From NCBI RefSeq assembly GCF_002277955.1, contig NZ_CP018477.1, positions 1,922,001 to 1,986,000 of the forward strand: a stretch of 64,000 nucleotides of DNA, read 5' to 3'. Below, piece after piece: positions 18,834 to 26,878 of the stretch. Source of the DNA: Thermogutta terrifontis. Its GTDB lineage: Bacteria; Planctomycetota; Planctomycetia; Pirellulales; Thermoguttaceae. Both the position numbers and the translations under genes were made by a program. The notes under the pieces are model-generated. The model was given only the letters and a program-made list of their open reading frames with translations, searched no databases and had not been told where the DNA came from. The stretch's first letter is position 1, and every line of letters starts with the position of its first letter.

Positions 18834-19259
18834 GGTTGAACTCCTTCGGAAAAACGAAATGGTTGACCGCCAGAGGTCCTTGCACCGTAGCAGACCTCTT
18901 CGAGAATGGGAAAACGTGCCACGATTCCGCCGCGTTGGATTATGACACTTCCCGCCCGTGGCGGAAAGATCCACACGGGAATGGCCCTGAGCCATCCCCA
19001 TTTTTGCAAAAACCCATGACACGCCACGAGCGCAAAGCGCCGCAGGGGCAATTCATGAATTGCCCCCACCAGTGCGTGGCCCGGGTGCAACCGGGCGCTC
19101 CGGTCGCTCGCATGGTTCGGGTGCGACCGGGATGCTCGGTCGGCGTGGAAGCCGGACCTGTTAAAAGGACGCCTTTCACGGCGTCCATCCAACTCTCATG
19201 GGAATGGCTTGGTCTAACACTTTTTGACGAAAGCGTATCGTGAAAGGACATCGCGAGCT
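18834..19259. other. divergent intergenic region carrying repeat copy A
   Basis: Apart from the dispersed repeat at 19001-19175, this stretch must hold the promoters of the minus-strand glycosidase-like gene and the plus-strand nuclease gene. No small gene or clear promoter hexamers were identified. Confidence 0.5.
19001..19175 (+). repeat. dispersed intergenic palindromic repeat, copy A
   Basis: The left edge reads TTTTTGCAAAAAC (19001-19013), then ACGAGCGCAAAGCG, then a perfect 22 bp palindrome at 19045-19066 with core AATTCATGAATT between GGGGC and GCCCC. The left flank matches copies B and C. The right flank diverges, except for CGGACCTG near 19157. Confidence 0.85.
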
Positions 19260-20213
19260 ATGAAACTGCCGGACGATCCAAGACAACTGATGGAGATGGA
19301 GGCTGCCACGCTGCGAAGCCTGCAACTGGTGGAGGCAGAGCGTTCTCAAATCAAGCGGCAGATCGACACATTACGTTCATCGCTTGCAGGCTTGAAACGC
19401 GAGAGGTTTTGGGCGGAGCTCAGGCTGCGTTATGTGCGCTGCGCGGGCGCCATTCGGAAATGGTTGACGCTGCCCGAGTGGATGCGATTTCTCGTGTGGC
19501 TGAGTGCGGGAATCACGCTGGCCGTGGGGCTGGCAATCACAGTAGGCCCCAAAGTAGCCGTTGGCGCGCTCCTTGCAGGGTGCGTTGTCGCATTGTTATC
19601 TGCTTTCCCCAGTGACACCACCCTGGAGGCTCTCAGACAAAGATTAATGGATCATTTACCCCGGCTGCTGGAATCGCATACGCAGCTTCTGGCTGAGTTG
19701 GCCCAAAAAAAGGAGGAATTATTGCAAACCGAACGGCAGGTGGCGACGATTCGCGGCACTTTGGAGGAGATACGCCGATCCCGGCTCCACCGTCTCGCCG
19801 TTCTGGCCTCGGCCGATTGGCGGTCGTTCCGGGGTGAAATGTTCGAGCGATTTCTCGTGCAGGTTCTCAACGAACTGGGCTACCGGGTCCATCATACGGG
19901 GAAAAGCGGAGATCAGGGCGCGGATATCATCTGCGAGCGGGACGGCTACAGAGTGGCTGTGCAGGTGAAGGGATACACCCATAGTGTGGGCAATGACGCT
20001 GTGCAGGAGGCGTACTCCGGCAAGGCCTTTTACCAGTGCCACGGATGTGCGGTGATCACCAATAGTGTTTTCACATCCGGTGCCCGCGAGTTAGCGCAAA
20101 GAGTCGGTTGTGTACTTATCGACCAGACGATGATACCGGACTTAATCTTCGGGAGAATTAACCTGATCCAATTGTCATGCCAAACGCGAGTCCAGTCTCA
20201 GGGAGTCGCATGA
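19260..20213 (+). CDS. membrane-anchored Mrr-type restriction endonuclease-like protein
   Basis: ATG 19260 is the first start in the protein-like frame, giving 317 residues. Layout: a coiled coil (about 8-50), two hydrophobic spans (75-95 and 97-117), a second coiled coil (about 120-175), then a PD-(D/E)xK nuclease of the Mrr_cat type (190-290). Catalytic-looking residues are Glu196, Asp222 in GDQGADI and Gln235-Lys237 in VQVKGY. NDAVQEAYSGK and AVITNSVFT are also typical of Mrr-like domains. Known relatives cut modified or foreign DNA. Here two membrane spans would tether the nuclease to the inner membrane. No methyltransferase or specificity subunit is nearby. Its last 16 bp overlap the convergent receiver gene. 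Confidence 0.85.
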   Translation: MKLPDDPRQLMEMEAATLRSLQLVEAERSQIKRQIDTLRSSLAGLKRERFWAELRLRYVRCAGAIRKWLTLPEWMRFLVWLSAGITLAVGLAITVGPKVAVGALLAGCVVALLSAFPSDTTLEALRQRLMDHLPRLLESHTQLLAELAQKKEELLQTERQVATIRGTLEEIRRSRLHRLAVLASADWRSFRGEMFERFLVQVLNELGYRVHHTGKSGDQGADIICERDGYRVAVQVKGYTHSVGNDAVQEAYSGKAFYQCHGCAVITNSVFTSGARELAQRVGCVLIDQTMIPDLIFGRINLIQLSCQTRVQSQGVA

Positions 20214-20672: not shown

Positions 20673-22280
20673 TTATTTGCCATAGCTTAATCGTGAGATG
20701 TCCCCGTTCAAAAAAGTCGTTGTGTCTGGCGAGGCGGCGGCCTGCTCGCTGGCGATGATAGGAGTCAGGTGGGAGCCGTGCGCCTTTGCCTTCTCTAGAT
20801 CTTGCGTCGGAAGCCGAATGACAATCCGCGTGCCTGTGTTTTCTTCGCTTTCCACATTGATGCTTCCTTGGTGTCCTTCCACGATCACTCTGTAAAGATG
20901 AACCAGGGAGCGGCGGGATGTAACGGATGCTGGCTGGTGGGCAAAGTACGGTTCGAGGAAATTCTTCCGTTCCTGGGAATCCATTGCAACGCCGTTGTCA
21001 GAGACTTCTATTTCCACCCAATCTGTATCCAGGCGACGCGTACGGATCACGATGAGGCCCTTTTCATCCCCTGAGTTTTGCTGCTTTTCGATGGCTTCCA
21101 CGGCGCCCAGAAGAAGATTGGACACGGCCTGGCTGAAGGCCCCCGCCATCAGTGGGACATGCGGGAGGGTGCTGTCGAATTCTGTAATGACGTCGGCGAC
21201 CTTAGACACACGGGAGTGCATCACATCCACCGCGGGCTGAATAACAGCATTGAGGTCCTGAACCGTCTTTTCTGTTTCATCCGGATAGGCGAAAGTCCGA
21301 AGGGCTTTCACTATTTTCGCAAGGCGCTGGACCCCTGTGAGGGTTTCTTCCAGTGCATCCGGGAATTCCCGAGTGAGCAGTTCATCGTCCAGCATATTTC
21401 CCTGAGACCCTGTGGAAAATCCTTCTTTTTGCAGTACCAGTCCTTGCGGGTTTTGGCTGATCTCGCGCCAGGTTTCCCGCAGGAAATGGAGATTATGTTC
21501 CAGGTACTGAAGCGGGGAATTCATCTCGTGGGAGAGGATCTCGGCCAGGTGACCGATGGCTGCGAGTCGCTCGGCCTGCACCAAACGGTCTTCCCAGCGC
21601 TTCCGATCGGTGAGGTCCACCGTGATTTCGCTGATGTACCACTTGGCGTCGGGTGCCAGGAAAGGGATCGCGGTGGTTTGCACTGGGCGATTGCCTTCGC
21701 GAGGCAGGATCCGTTCCTGTGTCACCCGCATTTTGGTTCGCAACGCCCTGGCAGTGGGGCAAGCCCAGCAGGGCTCGGTCGTTCCACAGAAATACTCGTG
21801 CGTGGTTTTGCCACGATAGTCGCCATAAACAGCCCGCCGCCAAAGGTCCACATAAACCAAGCGACATTCTTGGTCCACGATGCTCAGTCCCGTGCGTGTG
21901 ACCTCCAGAACCAGTTCTGTTTGCCGTCGGAAAGCGTGGATTTCCTCTTCCACTTTTTTGCGCGTCAACACGGTGCTCAAACGTTCCGCCAGTTCGTTGA
22001 CAAACATGCGATAGACGGAGAAGCCTTCGTCATCAAGAAGCTCCTTGGGGCAGCATATTTCCACGGCGCCCACGTAATCATCTCCTAGAAAGATGGCGGC
22101 ACTCAGTTTGTGCTCTGTTTCTTCGTACGAGTCAGCTTGGTAAACCTGCCCCCGAAAATGATCCGCGAATAGACATTTGGAAGGTCCTGGAATATCCCAG
22201 CCAGGAGATGGCTGGTCAGCTCGACCATCTCTTCGATGGAGGCACCACGTTCCGCCAGATCGCTCAGCCCGGCTAGGCAT
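20673..22280 (-). CDS. sensor histidine kinase, C-terminal part (frameshifted gene)
   Basis: This frame carries the later part of a kinase whose beginning is in the neighbouring frame (22103-22975). Meaningful sequence starts near 22150 with GQVYQADSYEETEHKLSA, the second half of a GAF-like domain. Upstream residues to 22280 are noise. A PAS-like domain follows, with TGLSIVDQECRLVYVD and a CPTAR motif containing the paired Cys of the EPCWACPT patch. Then come a HisKA domain with phospho-acceptor His in EILSHEMNSPLQYL and an HATPase_c domain with N-box-like SNLLLGAVEAIE and VSDNGVAMD. The kinase would autophosphorylate and pass phosphate to the receiver 46 bp downstream. The usual G-box looks weak (FLEPYFAHQPASV), so ATP binding may be altered. 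Confidence 0.85.
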   Translation of the reverse strand: MPSRAERSGGTWCLHRRDGRADQPSPGWDIPGPSKCLFADHFRGQVYQADSYEETEHKLSAAIFLGDDYVGAVEICCPKELLDDEGFSVYRMFVNELAERLSTVLTRKKVEEEIHAFRRQTELVLEVTRTGLSIVDQECRLVYVDLWRRAVYGDYRGKTTHEYFCGTTEPCWACPTARALRTKMRVTQERILPREGNRPVQTTAIPFLAPDAKWYISEITVDLTDRKRWEDRLVQAERLAAIGHLAEILSHEMNSPLQYLEHNLHFLRETWREISQNPQGLVLQKEGFSTGSQGNMLDDELLTREFPDALEETLTGVQRLAKIVKALRTFAYPDETEKTVQDLNAVIQPAVDVMHSRVSKVADVITEFDSTLPHVPLMAGAFSQAVSNLLLGAVEAIEKQQNSGDEKGLIVIRTRRLDTDWVEIEVSDNGVAMDSQERKNFLEPYFAHQPASVTSRRSLVHLYRVIVEGHQGSINVESEENTGTRIVIRLPTQDLEKAKAHGSHLTPIIASEQAAASPDTTTFLNGDISRLSYGK

Positions 22281-22975
22281 TCGAGCTGACGATTGCGCCG
22301 CTTTAACTGCTGTGTTTGGATGGCTAGTCTTTTTTCGTACTCAACTCGCTTTTCCTTTTCCTGCTCCTCCCGAATATGGGCATCGACGATGGGGGCCAGA
22401 AATCGGGCGATCATTTCGAGGGTACGCACATCCTCCTGTGTGTAATCGCTAGATTTATTGGCCAAAAAGATTGCCGCCACCAACCGATCCTGGACGATGA
22501 GAGGCACACCCAGAAACCGGGTGATGGGCACGTGCCCAGGGGGAGTCGCAACCGGTTGATTGACGCACACGGTGAGTTGCTGCTTGAGGACCTGCGCGAG
22601 GACACCGCCCAGTTCGTCCAACTCAAACACAATTTTCTTGTCTGCCATCTGGCAGCGATTCCACACGTGGCGCGTCAGGCTGGGACAAACAAGGCGGCCA
22701 GAGCGATCGATGTAGCCGATGATGCCATACTCACTCTTGAGAGCTTTGAGGATTTCATCAAGAACTTCAGAGTATACGTCGTCGCTGGAAAGTCGCAGGA
22801 AGCATTCGTTGATCCGAGTCAGTGTCTCAACGAGGGAGGCCGCCGAGGCGTCCGCGCAGGGTTGTGTATCCAAGGATTTGTTGGCCGCACCCATTCGAGC
22901 GGAATCCTCTATGACTGCAAAGCCGAGTGGCGGGGCCGGGGTGACAGGTTTCACCGTTTCATTCTGCTCGTTCAT
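22103..22975 (-). CDS. sensor histidine kinase, N-terminal part with GAF domain (frameshifted gene)
   Basis: The ATG at 22975 has GGAGG six bases upstream. The first 45 residues are unstructured. A GAF domain spans about 50-195 (YGIIGYIDRSGRLVCPS, PITRFLGVPLIVQDRLVAAIFLAN, YTQEDVRTLEMIARFLAP). A coiled linker with IREEQEKEKRVEYEKRLA and a second GAF-like domain follow. That domain breaks at IIFGGRF: adding one base to the five-C run (plus strand 22149-22153) would give IIFGGQVYQADSYEET and join it to the downstream frame. The gene was therefore once a single kinase of about 770 residues, GAF-GAF-PAS-HisKA-HATPase. Whether the break is real or a sequencing error cannot be told here. Confidence 0.85.
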   Translation of the reverse strand: MNEQNETVKPVTPAPPLGFAVIEDSARMGAANKSLDTQPCADASAASLVETLTRINECFLRLSSDDVYSEVLDEILKALKSEYGIIGYIDRSGRLVCPSLTRHVWNRCQMADKKIVFELDELGGVLAQVLKQQLTVCVNQPVATPPGHVPITRFLGVPLIVQDRLVAAIFLANKSSDYTQEDVRTLEMIARFLAPIVDAHIREEQEKEKRVEYEKRLAIQTQQLKRRNRQLECLAGLSDLAERGASIEEMVELTSHLLAGIFQDLPNVYSRIIFGGRFTKLTRTKKQSTN

Positions 22976-23667
22976 GAGCAACCTCCGCGGCCTGCTTCAA
23001 AGGGACAGACCCTTCAATGTTAATGACTCGGCATCGACGTTCGCGATTTTTCGTGCCCAGCGGTGCTGTGCGGAACTTCCGACCATCTTCCAGACAGGAA
23101 AATGCAAGGGCTGCCACTGCTAGGGAGCGGTTCTGGCCATTACTAGGAAAATTGAGGCCTCCTGGCTTTTGCCTTTTGTTAAAACAATAGGTCACAAATG
23201 CGGCGTGTCGGGACGTGTTCGTTCGGCGGGCATCTTCAGTGAGCGACGTTCGGGGAACCTTTCACCGCGGGCTGGGGAGGGGTAGCAGTACAGAAGTAGG
23301 TCCTCGTGCGATGGCGAGAATTGCTCAGGTGGCAGGTCCCCGCGCCTCACGGGCTGCGTTTTTGTTACGCCGTTCGAACCGGTGGAAGCTCCGTCGGCAT
23401 TTTTCGAATATCCCACCGAATCTCCACACGCGGAACAAACGGAATCGAACACTGGTATGGCCCTGAAGACGCCGAAGAAACGCCGTTGGTAGGAAACGAG
23501 TGGCCAGGAAAGGCTTTGGAACTACTTGTGCACGTGGGATCGAGAGCTAAGAACCTGCTCTCGCCGTCCCCAGCTGTTCCACCACGTGACCTATACTTTT
23601 TATGGCCCGTAGTATCGATTCCCGATTTCCCATTCGTTTCTGAGCGTTAATAAGGGGGGTTCTGGAG
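22976..23667. other. long divergent intergenic region of the signalling island
   Basis: This 692 bp separates the minus-strand kinase from the plus-strand HDOD gene. The open frames in it lack ribosome-binding sites and look non-coding. The only recognisable signal is the promoter-like motif at 23584-23600. Confidence 0.5.
23584..23600 (+). promoter_or_regulatory. promoter-like motif upstream of HDOD gene
   Basis: CGTGACCTATACTTTT contains a -10-like TATACT at 23591-23596, about 70 bp before the HDOD ATG. The near-identical CGTGAGCTATACTTTT stands 79 bp before the second HDOD gene (56324-56339). Neither has a sigma-70-like -35, so another sigma factor or an activator may be involved. Confidence 0.4.
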
Positions 23668-24635: not shown

Positions 24636-26315
24636 ATGGATGGCATCGTCCCCGAAAACCTGACTGAGTTTTTAGAAAAGTGGCAGGATCCCGAGGTGGG
24701 AAATTTCTCCCAGCCTTTCAGAGCATCTGGTTCGGGGTTCCTCGCACGGTGCAAAGCCCTGTGGGTTCAGTCACTCGGTTGCCCGGGGGATGGACCGACG
24801 GCCTCAACCACACTTATCAACACACTCGCCCCGGCTGTTTGGGACAAATTGGTTGACCTGGTGAAACATGTGGACCCCACAGTCGGAGCGCACCGCCTGG
24901 CGGTTCCCAACGAGCCCTCCTCATTCCTTCTTGTCTGGCCGCTACGGGGGACATTGCCCCCTCAAGTCTTGGCTGCTGTTCTTGAGAACGACTGGTTGAA
25001 AGAAGATGCTGAGGATGGCTGGCGAGATTGGTACGAAGACGACTCGGCCATGCCGGCCGCGGAGATTCTCACGATGTTGCTCTTGGAGTTGGAATGGCAA
25101 CAGAAGGAGAAACTTCTCCAGGCCGAAAAGCATGTGGAGCAGCTCCTTAACGAACGGATCACGTTGAAGACCTCGCATGCCGAGGCGGTAGCTAGTGTGG
25201 TGGCTGAGCGCGAGCAGCGGCTTCGGGAGCAGGAGGAGCACTACCATCAAATTCAAACCATCATGCGCAAGGCGGCCGACGCCATTGTGACGCTTAACGA
25301 ATCGGGAACGATTCAGTCGATCAATGAGGCGGCGGAAGAAATCTTTGGTTTTCGCGAGAATGAACTTGTTGGCCAACCGGTGGATGTGCTTCTGGGGTGT
25401 GACCATCGGGAGGCGTCCTCTTTAGAGGTTCTCTGCCAGGCCCTCAAGAGTGAACGACAGGTGTGCGAAATTCAGGGGCAGCGGAAAGACGGAACGGCCA
25501 TCGAGCTCGAGCTCTCGGTAAGCGAGGTGTCCCTCGGGCAGGAACGCAGGTACATCGTCATTTTTCGCGATATCACCATTCGCAAGCGATTGGAAGAGCA
25601 GCAACGCCGTCTCCATCTGATGAACCAGATGATTCTGAATGCGGCCGGGGATGGCATCGTCGGCGTCGATCATGAAGGACGCATCACGTTTGTCAATCCG
25701 GCTGCATCGCGGATGCTGGGTTGGGAATGCGACGAACTCTTGGGGCGGTCGTTTCGGGAGACTGTGCATCAGCCTGTGGCGCAGGCCGGAAACCACGGAA
25801 TGAGAGATTTCTTCCCGGTCAAGGGCTTGCCACATTCGGCCACGCCTGCACTGACGCAGACCGTATTTCGGCGGCGCGACGGAAGCACGTTTCCTGTGGA
25901 ATGCAGCAGCCAGCCGATCCGGGAGGATGAGAGGATTACCGGTCAGGTCATTACATTTCGCGATATTTCAGAACGGCAAATGCTGGAAGCCAAGCTGCGC
26001 CAGGCTCAGAAGATGGAATCGATCGGCCAGTTGGCGGCCGGAATCGCCCACGAGATCAATACCCCACCCAATACATTGGGGACAATATTTGTTTCGTCCT
26101 GGAAGCATGGAAGGAACTGGATCCCATCTTTCAGGGTTGTCTCGAAATTCGCAGGCGGTTGCTCAGTGAAGAGGCGATCCAGGAAGAACACCTGGCGGCT
26201 CTCTACGATGCAATCCGCGAGGTTGACCTGGACTACCTGTATGAGGATGTTCCACGCGCTCTCAATGAAGCAATGGAAGGCGTGCGCGGGGTGGCCAAGA
26301 TTGTCCGTTCGATGA
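24636..26315 (+). CDS. PAS-PAS sensor histidine kinase, N-terminal part (frameshifted gene)
   Basis: GAGGTGACAA precedes the ATG. Residues 1-150 are a unique region without membrane spans. A coiled coil covers about 150-205 (EKLLQAEKHVEQLLNERI). PAS domain 1 is at about 208-320 (ADAIVTLNESGTIQSINEAAEEIFG, ending FRDITIRKRLEE) and PAS 2 at about 330-455 (GDGIVGVDHEGRITFVNPAASRMLG). A HisKA domain then begins (MESIGQLAAGIAHEINTP), with the phospho-acceptor His just before the break. After about 26069 the frame is noise to its stop at 26315. Adding one C to the CCC at 26067-26069 restores HEINTPPQYIGDN and joins the frame to the ATPase part. The kinase is cytoplasmic and would sense an internal signal. 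Confidence 0.88.
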   Translation: MDGIVPENLTEFLEKWQDPEVGNFSQPFRASGSGFLARCKALWVQSLGCPGDGPTASTTLINTLAPAVWDKLVDLVKHVDPTVGAHRLAVPNEPSSFLLVWPLRGTLPPQVLAAVLENDWLKEDAEDGWRDWYEDDSAMPAAEILTMLLLELEWQQKEKLLQAEKHVEQLLNERITLKTSHAEAVASVVAEREQRLREQEEHYHQIQTIMRKAADAIVTLNESGTIQSINEAAEEIFGFRENELVGQPVDVLLGCDHREASSLEVLCQALKSERQVCEIQGQRKDGTAIELELSVSEVSLGQERRYIVIFRDITIRKRLEEQQRRLHLMNQMILNAAGDGIVGVDHEGRITFVNPAASRMLGWECDELLGRSFRETVHQPVAQAGNHGMRDFFPVKGLPHSATPALTQTVFRRRDGSTFPVECSSQPIREDERITGQVITFRDISERQMLEAKLRQAQKMESIGQLAAGIAHEINTPPNTLGTIFVSSWKHGRNWIPSFRVVSKFAGGCSVKRRSRKNTWRLSTMQSARLTWTTCMRMFHALSMKQWKACAGWPRLSVR

Positions 26316-26878
26316 AAGAATTCTCGCACCCAGCGGCGCAGGCGAAGCAGGTGGTGGATTTCAACCGCTGTGTGGAGAGCACGGTGACAGTGTGCCGAAA
26401 CGAGTGGAAATATGTGGCGGATGTGGAGCTCGATTTAGACCCGCGACTTCCACCTGTGTATTGTTCGCCTGGTGAAATGAATCAGGTGTTACTCAATCTG
26501 ATTGTGAATGCAGCCCATGCCATTGGGGACAAACTGGGAGGGGTCACAAATGAACGGGGAAAAATTACGATTTCGACGCGCTGCCAGGGGGATTGGCTGG
26601 AGATCCGCGTCAGTGATACGGGAACCGGTATTCCAGAGGCCATCCGCGACCGCATCTTCGATCCCTTCTTTACAACCAAACCCGTGGGTAAGGGAACCGG
26701 ACAGGGCCTGGCGATCACGCATTCGATCGTGGTGGAAAAGCACCATGGCACGATCGATGTTGAAACGACCCCAGGAAAAGGGACGACCTTTATCGTGCGC
26801 ATTCCTATTCACGATCAGGAAGAGGAAAAGAATGCTTCCGATTTGCCTGGCGGGTCTCCCGAGTCCGTGATCGCATGA
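26159..26878 (+). CDS. sensor histidine kinase, C-terminal ATPase part (frameshifted gene)
   Basis: This frame continues the kinase of 24636. Kinase-like sequence actually extends back to about 26069 (QYIGDN, FVLEAWKELDPIFQGC). The open frame with a possible start begins at 26159. It holds the end of the dimerisation region (MEGVRGVAKIVRSMKEFSHP) and a complete HATPase_c domain: N-box LNLIVNAAHAIGD, G1 VSDTGTGIP, F-box RIFDPFFTTKP and G2 GKGTGQGLAIT. All ATP-binding boxes look intact, so the original kinase was active. A ribosome-binding site for an independent start is not evident. A response regulator follows 73 bp downstream and would be the phosphate acceptor. Confidence 0.85.
   Translation: MLSEEAIQEEHLAALYDAIREVDLDYLYEDVPRALNEAMEGVRGVAKIVRSMKEFSHPAAQAKQVVDFNRCVESTVTVCRNEWKYVADVELDLDPRLPPVYCSPGEMNQVLLNLIVNAAHAIGDKLGGVTNERGKITISTRCQGDWLEIRVSDTGTGIPEAIRDRIFDPFFTTKPVGKGTGQGLAITHSIVVEKHHGTIDVETTPGKGTTFIVRIPIHDQEEEKNASDLPGGSPESVIA

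Follow-up and report, generated by a model that had tools for sequence, protein, structure and literature searches.

Encoded in the window, the 64,000-nucleotide stretch of the Thermogutta terrifontis genome analysed here, is a predicted membrane-tethered Mrr-type nuclease of 317 amino acids, in which a long helix, a two-span membrane hairpin, a second long helix and an Mrr_cat nuclease domain follow one another within a single intact reading frame (Table 1). The explanation that we favour, while granting it slightly less than an even chance, is that of a stand-alone guard anchored in the membrane that would cut incoming, chiefly phage, DNA. The membrane-tethered layout agrees with the original prediction, which had set the nuclease behind two coiled coils and a double span; all of these elements are predicted here too, the coiled coils as long helices, but in the order helix, two spans, helix, nuclease.

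Table 1 Features of the nuclease gene and its product (aa, residues of the 317-aa protein; rows, sequences of the 13-row homologue alignment).
Feature	Window position	Strand	Basis
CDS, 317 aa: helix, two-span hairpin, helix, Mrr_cat nuclease	19260..20213	+	ORF, Pfam, AlphaFold2, dN/dS
AAAGGA, Shine-Dalgarno-like, 11 bases before ATG	19243..19248	+	Sequence reading
Long helix 1, aa 7-68, marginal heptad period	19278..19463	+	AlphaFold2/DSSP; periodicity test
Membrane span 1, aa 73-94	19476..19541	+	Hydrophobicity, AlphaFold2
Membrane span 2, aa 97-115	19548..19604	+	Hydrophobicity, AlphaFold2
Long helix 2, aa 119-184, strong heptad period, runs into nuclease	19614..19811	+	AlphaFold2, periodicity
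Mrr_cat nuclease domain, aa 189-292	19824..20135	+	Pfam; 1y88 superposition
Helix glutamate E196	19845..19847	+	11/13 rows
Catalytic D222	19923..19925	+	13/13 rows
QVK motif, Q235 and K237	19962..19970	+	Q 13/13, K 12/13 rows

The frame runs from an ATG at 19260 to a stop ending at 20213 on the forward strand, and the gene is present in single copy in the one-contig, 4.81-Mb genome. Closest to its product is a full-length relative, 80% identical, in a genome of the same genus (G001), where the upstream gene (91%) and the downstream kinase (86%) likewise have relatives at the same place. This full-length copy, the low dN/dS of the nuclease (below) and the conserved neighbours argue that the frame did not arise by chance. 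Divergent from the nuclease gene is an upstream gene without a Pfam match at E≤0.001; convergent with it, with an overlap of 16 bases, is a response-regulator gene, beyond which lie kinase, GAF, HDOD, PAS and HD ORFs. Among ten nearby ORFs, a Pfam scan found no methylase, helicase or specificity gene. Third-position G+C of the nuclease gene (0.64) is like that of the other ORFs of the window and thus offers no indication that the gene was recently transferred.

Separating the nuclease gene from its upstream neighbour is a dispersed repeat of ~211 bp (window 18986–19196), with 66 matching segments in its own genome (this one included, many of them partial) and 64 in G001, which lacks the repeat at the nuclease site; none was found in genomes G002 or G003. 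Further downstream, a GAF ORF overlaps an ORF for a histidine kinase that is in a different frame (window 20673–22981, reverse strand), and in G001 one open frame of 773 aa extends over the matching histidine kinase; the two ORFs would seem to be parts of a single gene broken by a frame change, whether genuine or due to a sequencing error. A PAS–PAS ORF that overlaps an ORF in another frame reading like the rest of a kinase (window 24636–26878, forward strand) is possibly a second split kinase gene.

The Mrr_cat domain (PF04471) is recognized at residues 189–292 with an E value of 3.2e-23 and 82.5 bits against a cut-off of 21, and its E...D...QxK active site is complete, with E196, D222, Q235 and K237 all present. 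This PD-QxK arrangement is the form of the site given for EcoKMrr and MspJI in the accessible text of a review (PMC12707154). Eleven Pfam families match the protein at E≤1, including weaker overlapping relatives of Mrr_cat, and no winged-helix or SRA reader domain is among them. The match to NA-iREase1, a family named as inactive, was taken as overlap with Mrr_cat, which outscores it, the catalytic residues being all in place. Two PDB entries alone, AF1548 (1y88) and MspJI, were matched by Foldseek at E≤0.001, and VIA-align superposed residues 191–299 on AF1548 with a Z-score of 12.7 and an r.m.s.d. of 3.0 Å over 109 residues.

Constraint on the protein is uneven. Compared with the G001 copy, the Nei–Gojobori dN/dS is 0.236 overall and 0.074 for residues 187–300, with 0.277 for helix 1, 0.253 for the spans and 0.329 for helix 2; for the last 17 residues it is 0.84, calculated from few sites. 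Mean identity over the 66 pairs formed by 12 sequences (the G001 copy being dropped) is 45% in the nuclease, 15% in helix 1, 19% in the spans and 18% in helix 2. By sequence comparison, the nuclease is strongly constrained, and the membrane part conserves its shape, not its sequence.

The catalytic residues were expected to be conserved in homologues, and they are (Table 1): all four are kept in the window's copy and in 10 of the other 12 rows of the alignment, the exceptions being L008, which has lost K237 and E196, and L006, which has lost E196. Elsewhere, L037 has a frame break inside the nuclease and L023 is without the membrane part. Two of the 13 copies therefore look catalytically degraded and one further copy frame-broken, which fits dispensability, not defence in particular. 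The losses in L008 and L006, and the Pfam score for NA-iREase1, are what might be seen if the protein were a catalytically idle DNA-binding tether, using the nuclease fold for binding alone; set against the four residues retained in most rows, the dN/dS of the nuclease and the higher score of Mrr_cat, this is a very improbable reading.

Preceding the nuclease core in the AlphaFold2 model (alignment of 13 homologues; mean pLDDT 89.7, pTM 0.66) are four helices, comprising residues 7–68, 73–94, 97–115 and 119–184. The middle two correspond to hydrophobic segments at residues 77–95 and 99–117 on the Kyte–Doolittle scale; span counts given here and below come from a Kyte–Doolittle window (19 residues, threshold 1.6) rather than from a topology predictor. 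The heptad-like period of helix 2 in the window's protein was equalled in none of 2,000 shuffles, and a period of 3.4–3.7 residues exceeded that of shuffled sequences (p<0.05) in 9 of 13 homologues. For helix 1 the heptad period gave p ~0.08 in the window's protein and p<0.05 in 4 of 13 homologues. Of the two coiled coils originally proposed, the second thus finds strong support in its periodicity, whereas for the first, where periodicity is marginal, the label rests on the model and not on the sequence.

Two spans were found in 12 of 13 homologues, joined by loops of 1–10 residues, so that both ends of the protein should lie on one side of the membrane. Lysine and arginine number 5 in 58 loop residues, 31 in the 180 residues before and 21 in the 180 after, counted over the homologues; this distribution favours a cytoplasmic location of both ends, the bias being modest, and weak after span 2. 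The proposal that the nuclease sits at the inner face of the membrane is in keeping with the short loops, the same-side ends and this modest charge bias. Two clade members, L006 and L015, carry an N-terminal CxxC...CxxC segment, resembling a zinc ribbon, ahead of the first helix, as would be expected of a cytoplasmic end. The SLATT two-span domain scored below its cut-off (11.7 bits versus 41), and no other named two-span domain reached its own.

VIA-align superposed the helical part on PspA (2.0 Å over 123 residues) and on the dynein stalk (2.0 Å over 130 residues), helical matches that are generic and imply no kinship, and for which a Z-score under ~13 may mean little. Both PspA and the dynein stalk are antiparallel hairpins, and the superpositions suggest an antiparallel stalk for the modelled protein. 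A family assignment from the VIA-align list was rejected, the entries being mostly generic hairpin or bundle helices.

These structural features bear on a different reading, that of a nuclease triggered by stress or modification in the manner of E. coli Mrr, which would be held inactive at the membrane, respond to envelope or methylation cues and cut the cell's own or modified DNA in a damage response or abortive infection. The nuclease family is the same, and EcoKMrr is described in the accessible text as switched by its oligomeric state, methylated DNA and high pressure (PMC12707154); the strong period of helix 2 makes control through oligomerization possible, and the helical part superposes on PspA. 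We nevertheless regard this reading as unlikely, given that Pfam found neither a winged-helix nor an SRA reader domain, that hairpin coiled coils are generic, and that no sensor domain was found, the short loops leaving next to nothing outside the membrane. Membrane-stress sensing, also raised by the original prediction, gained nothing beyond the generic hairpin resemblance to PspA.

For the membrane-anchored guard, the anatomy suggests the following course. The two-span hairpin would anchor the protein in the membrane, and the helices flanking it would pair into a stalk of roughly 9–10 nm (66 residues × 0.15 nm), at the tip of which the Mrr-type nuclease, if active, would be held on the cytoplasmic face; dimerization may proceed through helix 2. 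Foreign DNA, chiefly that of phages, would be cut while emerging into the cytoplasm, and the chromosome would lie mostly beyond the reach of the nuclease, self and non-self being told apart by location. As no known DNA-reading domain was found, specificity would most likely come from place. Owing to the near absence of an external part, the hairpin would make a poor sensor of external ligands and a good means of placing a nuclease.

Membrane-localized DNA-targeting systems named in the accessible part of a recent review are Zorya, Kiwa and SNIPE, and the word Mrr is absent from that part (PMC12904381). SNIPE, a nuclease bound to the membrane, cleaves the DNA of phages as it is being injected; its nuclease part is conserved and its N-terminal membrane region varies, one span being predicted in 59% of its homologues and two in 7%, according to the text available (Nature 2026; PMC13190303). 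As far as that text describes it, SNIPE resembles the window's protein, as predicted, in being the product of a single gene, membrane-anchored and elongated, with a C-terminal nuclease (its cytoplasmic side being favoured here by a modest charge bias), and in pairing a conserved nuclease with a variable N-terminal membrane region. SNIPE, however, is a GIY-YIG nuclease, a fold different from that of Mrr_cat; its DUF4041 is absent from the 11 Pfam families matching the window's protein at E≤1, and the latter has a long helix on either side of its hairpin. By sequence, the protein is not a member of SNIPE. The same principle nevertheless fits, judging by the anatomy, the pattern of conservation, the patchy spread and the phage-borne copy described below.

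Shield ShdA, in which, by the published text available to us, a transmembrane helix and a long coiled coil are joined to an RmuC-like nuclease (PMC11090510), is likewise a single defence protein made of these three parts, its nuclease being of the PD-(D/E)xK type, so this combination is not unique to SNIPE; ShdA differs in having one span, in being RmuC-like and not Mrr_cat, and in being found beside type I systems in Pseudomonas. EcoKMrr and MspJI share the Mrr_cat domain (PF04471) and D...QxK, but carry a winged-helix or SRA reader where the window's protein has a membrane stalk. In Zorya, a membrane-linked anti-phage system of a ZorAB motor and ZorCD, ZorD has an Mrr-like nuclease, and ZorD is the best PADLOC match of the window's protein (E 6e-15, nuclease end only); unlike Zorya, the 317-aa protein is one protein, without a helicase match, and none of ZorA, ZorB and ZorC was found among the ten scanned ORFs near its gene. 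The PADLOC candidate PDC-S02 also matched at the nuclease end, within residues 184–297 (E 2e-12).

To follow the spread of the architecture, genomes and contigs were searched for the helix, two spans, helix and Mrr domain. Among related genomes, its own included, 11 of 60 have a match and 7 have the full arrangement; across the phylum, again with its own included, 29 of 392 genomes match and at least 4 do so along the full profile, a count that may be low since at most five candidates per genome were scored. It was not found in two of the three other genomes of the genus (87% and 97% complete), and a search of genome contigs yielded at least 50 relatives. In a tree of 68 nuclease domains, which has few alignment columns and includes some near-copies, the 15 proteins with the architecture fall inside one 17-row clade (support 97/84), defined in this analysis and containing the window's protein. 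The other two rows, L020 and L023, are without the N-terminal module; as they are nested inside, in none of 200 bootstrap trees did a single branch separate exactly the rows with the architecture from the rest. Mapped on the tree, the architecture requires 3 changes versus a shuffled mean of 13.7, and none of 500 shuffles was as low. All rows of the clade have planctomycete titles or come from genomes of the window's phylum, and the search originally suggested thus puts these 15 proteins into one planctomycete clade.

Membrane anchorage extends beyond this clade. At least one N-terminal span is predicted in 32 of 49 assessed genome-contig relatives among the matches listed (50 fetched), or 23 of 40 without the clade; in 25 of 29 relatives from the phylum sample, or 21 of 25 without the clade; and in 6 of the 26 assessed among the best 30 Mrr_cat matches of the phylum, three sets that overlap in part (at least 4 loci occur twice) and include clade members. 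The original premise that Mrr nucleases are usually soluble therefore describes the canonical ones, to judge by the last of these sets, but not the relatives within the phylum, most of which have spans even outside the clade. The unnamed membrane-anchored Mrr_cat proteins, found in many phyla, on plasmids and on viral contigs, also have one or two N-terminal spans, mostly near the N terminus or behind a zinc ribbon; their profile matches start within the nuclease or shortly ahead of it and do not extend over the first long helix, and where included in the tree they occupy branches other than the window's clade. Membrane-anchored Mrr_cat as such is common in these predictions, and the distinctive part is the double stalk. 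In the open-licence literature searched, as far as its text was accessible, we found no description of the helix–two-span–helix–Mrr architecture, no study testing a membrane-anchored Mrr_cat protein and none of the span-bearing Mrr_cat class on viral contigs. For COG4741, a span-bearing nuclease family, the part of a 2005 paper available to us speculates about a membrane-associated guardian against foreign DNA (PMC1189080).

A housekeeping protein that processes DNA or links nucleoid and membrane, comparable to RmuC, would be expected to be less patchy than this. RmuC (PF02646), described in the accessible text as having an N-terminal span, coiled coils and a nuclease-like PD-(D/E)xK domain (PMC1189080), is the protein compared, and the window's gene is chromosomal, syntenic in two Thermogutta genomes and ordinary in composition. 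RmuC differs in its one N-terminal span and its other nuclease subfamily, and Pfam gave no RmuC match in the window's protein at E≤1. In view of the low full-profile count, the two genomes of the genus in which the gene was not found, the degraded copies and the copy on a phage contig, we consider a housekeeping function improbable.

That copy, L163, is a homologue on a 31-kb viral contig of a tailed phage (IMGVR_UViG_3300036985_003093), to be read as phage-borne with the proviso that IMG/VR contigs can contain host DNA. PHROG matches on the contig comprise terminase, portal, head protease, tail, DnaB-like helicase, RecE-like exonuclease and excisionase, and Pfam matches comprise YqaJ and phage integrase. 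The nuclease gene has the excisionase-like gene on one side and the integrase on the other, a position where genes that benefit the lysogen are frequently found in temperate phages. In the AlphaFold2 model of L163 (pLDDT 89.6, pTM 0.56), whose alignment overlaps largely with that of the window's protein, the elements follow one another in the same order. L163 is the single one of 68 viral loci with the full architecture, and a search for its close relatives recovered itself alone; a tblastn search of the window and of 19 chromosomal loci detected no integrase, recombinase or HTH protein like those of L163. Among 68 Mrr relatives on viral contigs (L197–L263 and L186; some are near-copies and one was not assessed for spans), an N-terminal span is predicted at least once in 47 and twice or more in 27; in an earlier scan of viral contigs the proportion with at least one was 13 of 28. 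On another viral contig, L167:2092–3627 encodes a protein of a different subgroup that follows the same general idea, with a zinc-ribbon-like start, two spans and Mrr_cat; its gene comes after gpA terminase and M15 peptidase genes and before a Fic gene. For incoming DNA as the target, L163 and the precedent of SNIPE, in the text available (PMC13190303), provide indirect support.

The anatomy would suit any DNA entering at the membrane, and the protein could be a barrier to, or a processor of, DNA from transformation or conjugation rather than from phage injection. On plasmids, the nuclease domain has many relatives (222 records), and one with a predicted N-terminal span lies two genes from a MobP2 relaxase; the three plasmid-borne relatives looked at, of which two have a predicted span, bear no annotation beyond 'restriction endonuclease'. 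The plasmid matches, however, cover at most 43% of the query, at the nuclease end (best 40 of 222 records), and neither an uptake gene nor a relaxase gene was found among the ten scanned ORFs of the window, so that we rate this reading a rather poor prospect. At a query coverage of 80%, none of the 222 plasmid and none of the 8 phage records with a match in the annotated collections remained. Neither this coverage nor the ordinary G+C of the gene supports a plasmid or phage origin for the copy in the window.

Neighbouring genes were compared between loci and, for 14 loci, 105 of 106 ORFs of at least 120 aa within 5 kb were scanned as one set (one long L110 ORF was omitted). Among families matched in at least two other loci, none extends beyond three compared loci and, besides the nuclease, few reach three; with the ten ORFs scanned in the window, this leaves plausible the earlier suggestion that the nuclease, having no methylase or helper gene nearby, may act alone. 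A DUF1501-type protein recurs in L015, L113 and L022, and an adjacent gene is 79.5% identical between the sister members L015 and L113 (the partner is also given as L006), which looks like vertical inheritance. PADLOC matches of the neighbours, in the 25 of 54 families listed, are mainly to PD-T4-6, with mad6, kinase C3a189 and MkoA in addition. The listed families have two or three members each, two neighbour ORFs match Pfam Pkinase (25 of 142 Pfam families listed), and most of the PADLOC matches are read as kinase matches, for the set and not protein by protein. A defence-island reading was not adopted, no clear defence gene appearing for the 105 neighbour ORFs among the 25 of 54 PADLOC families listed.

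In an empty-site comparison, G002 and G003 hold just distant (26–40%) relatives of two flanking genes. For two g62 copies, the right-flank protein has an orthologue (98%) in the partner genome G402 alone, with 52–56% elsewhere and 36–57% for further copies; the left-flank protein finds large-family relatives at 36–73% among the stronger matches, partner G402 included.

More broadly, the protein may represent an independently evolved form of location-based immunity, in which an Mrr nuclease on a coiled-coil stalk rooted in the membrane would recognize foreign DNA by its place of entry and not by sequence or modification; it would have spread among planctomycetes and, at least once, been taken up by a temperate phage as superinfection immunity, and the wider class of membrane-anchored Mrr_cat proteins may act alike. 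We put this wider proposal forward as a possibility that is more doubtful than the guard function itself. To our knowledge, few defence systems of the Planctomycetota have been studied. SNIPE, in the portion of the 2026 report available, established that place can serve a membrane-bound nuclease as the cue separating self from non-self. If the proposal is true, an unrelated nuclease on an unrelated stalk acts by place as SNIPE does, which would make the strategy convergent and, as Mrr_cat proteins with predicted N-terminal spans turn up often among the relatives surveyed in bacteria and on viral contigs, probably widespread.
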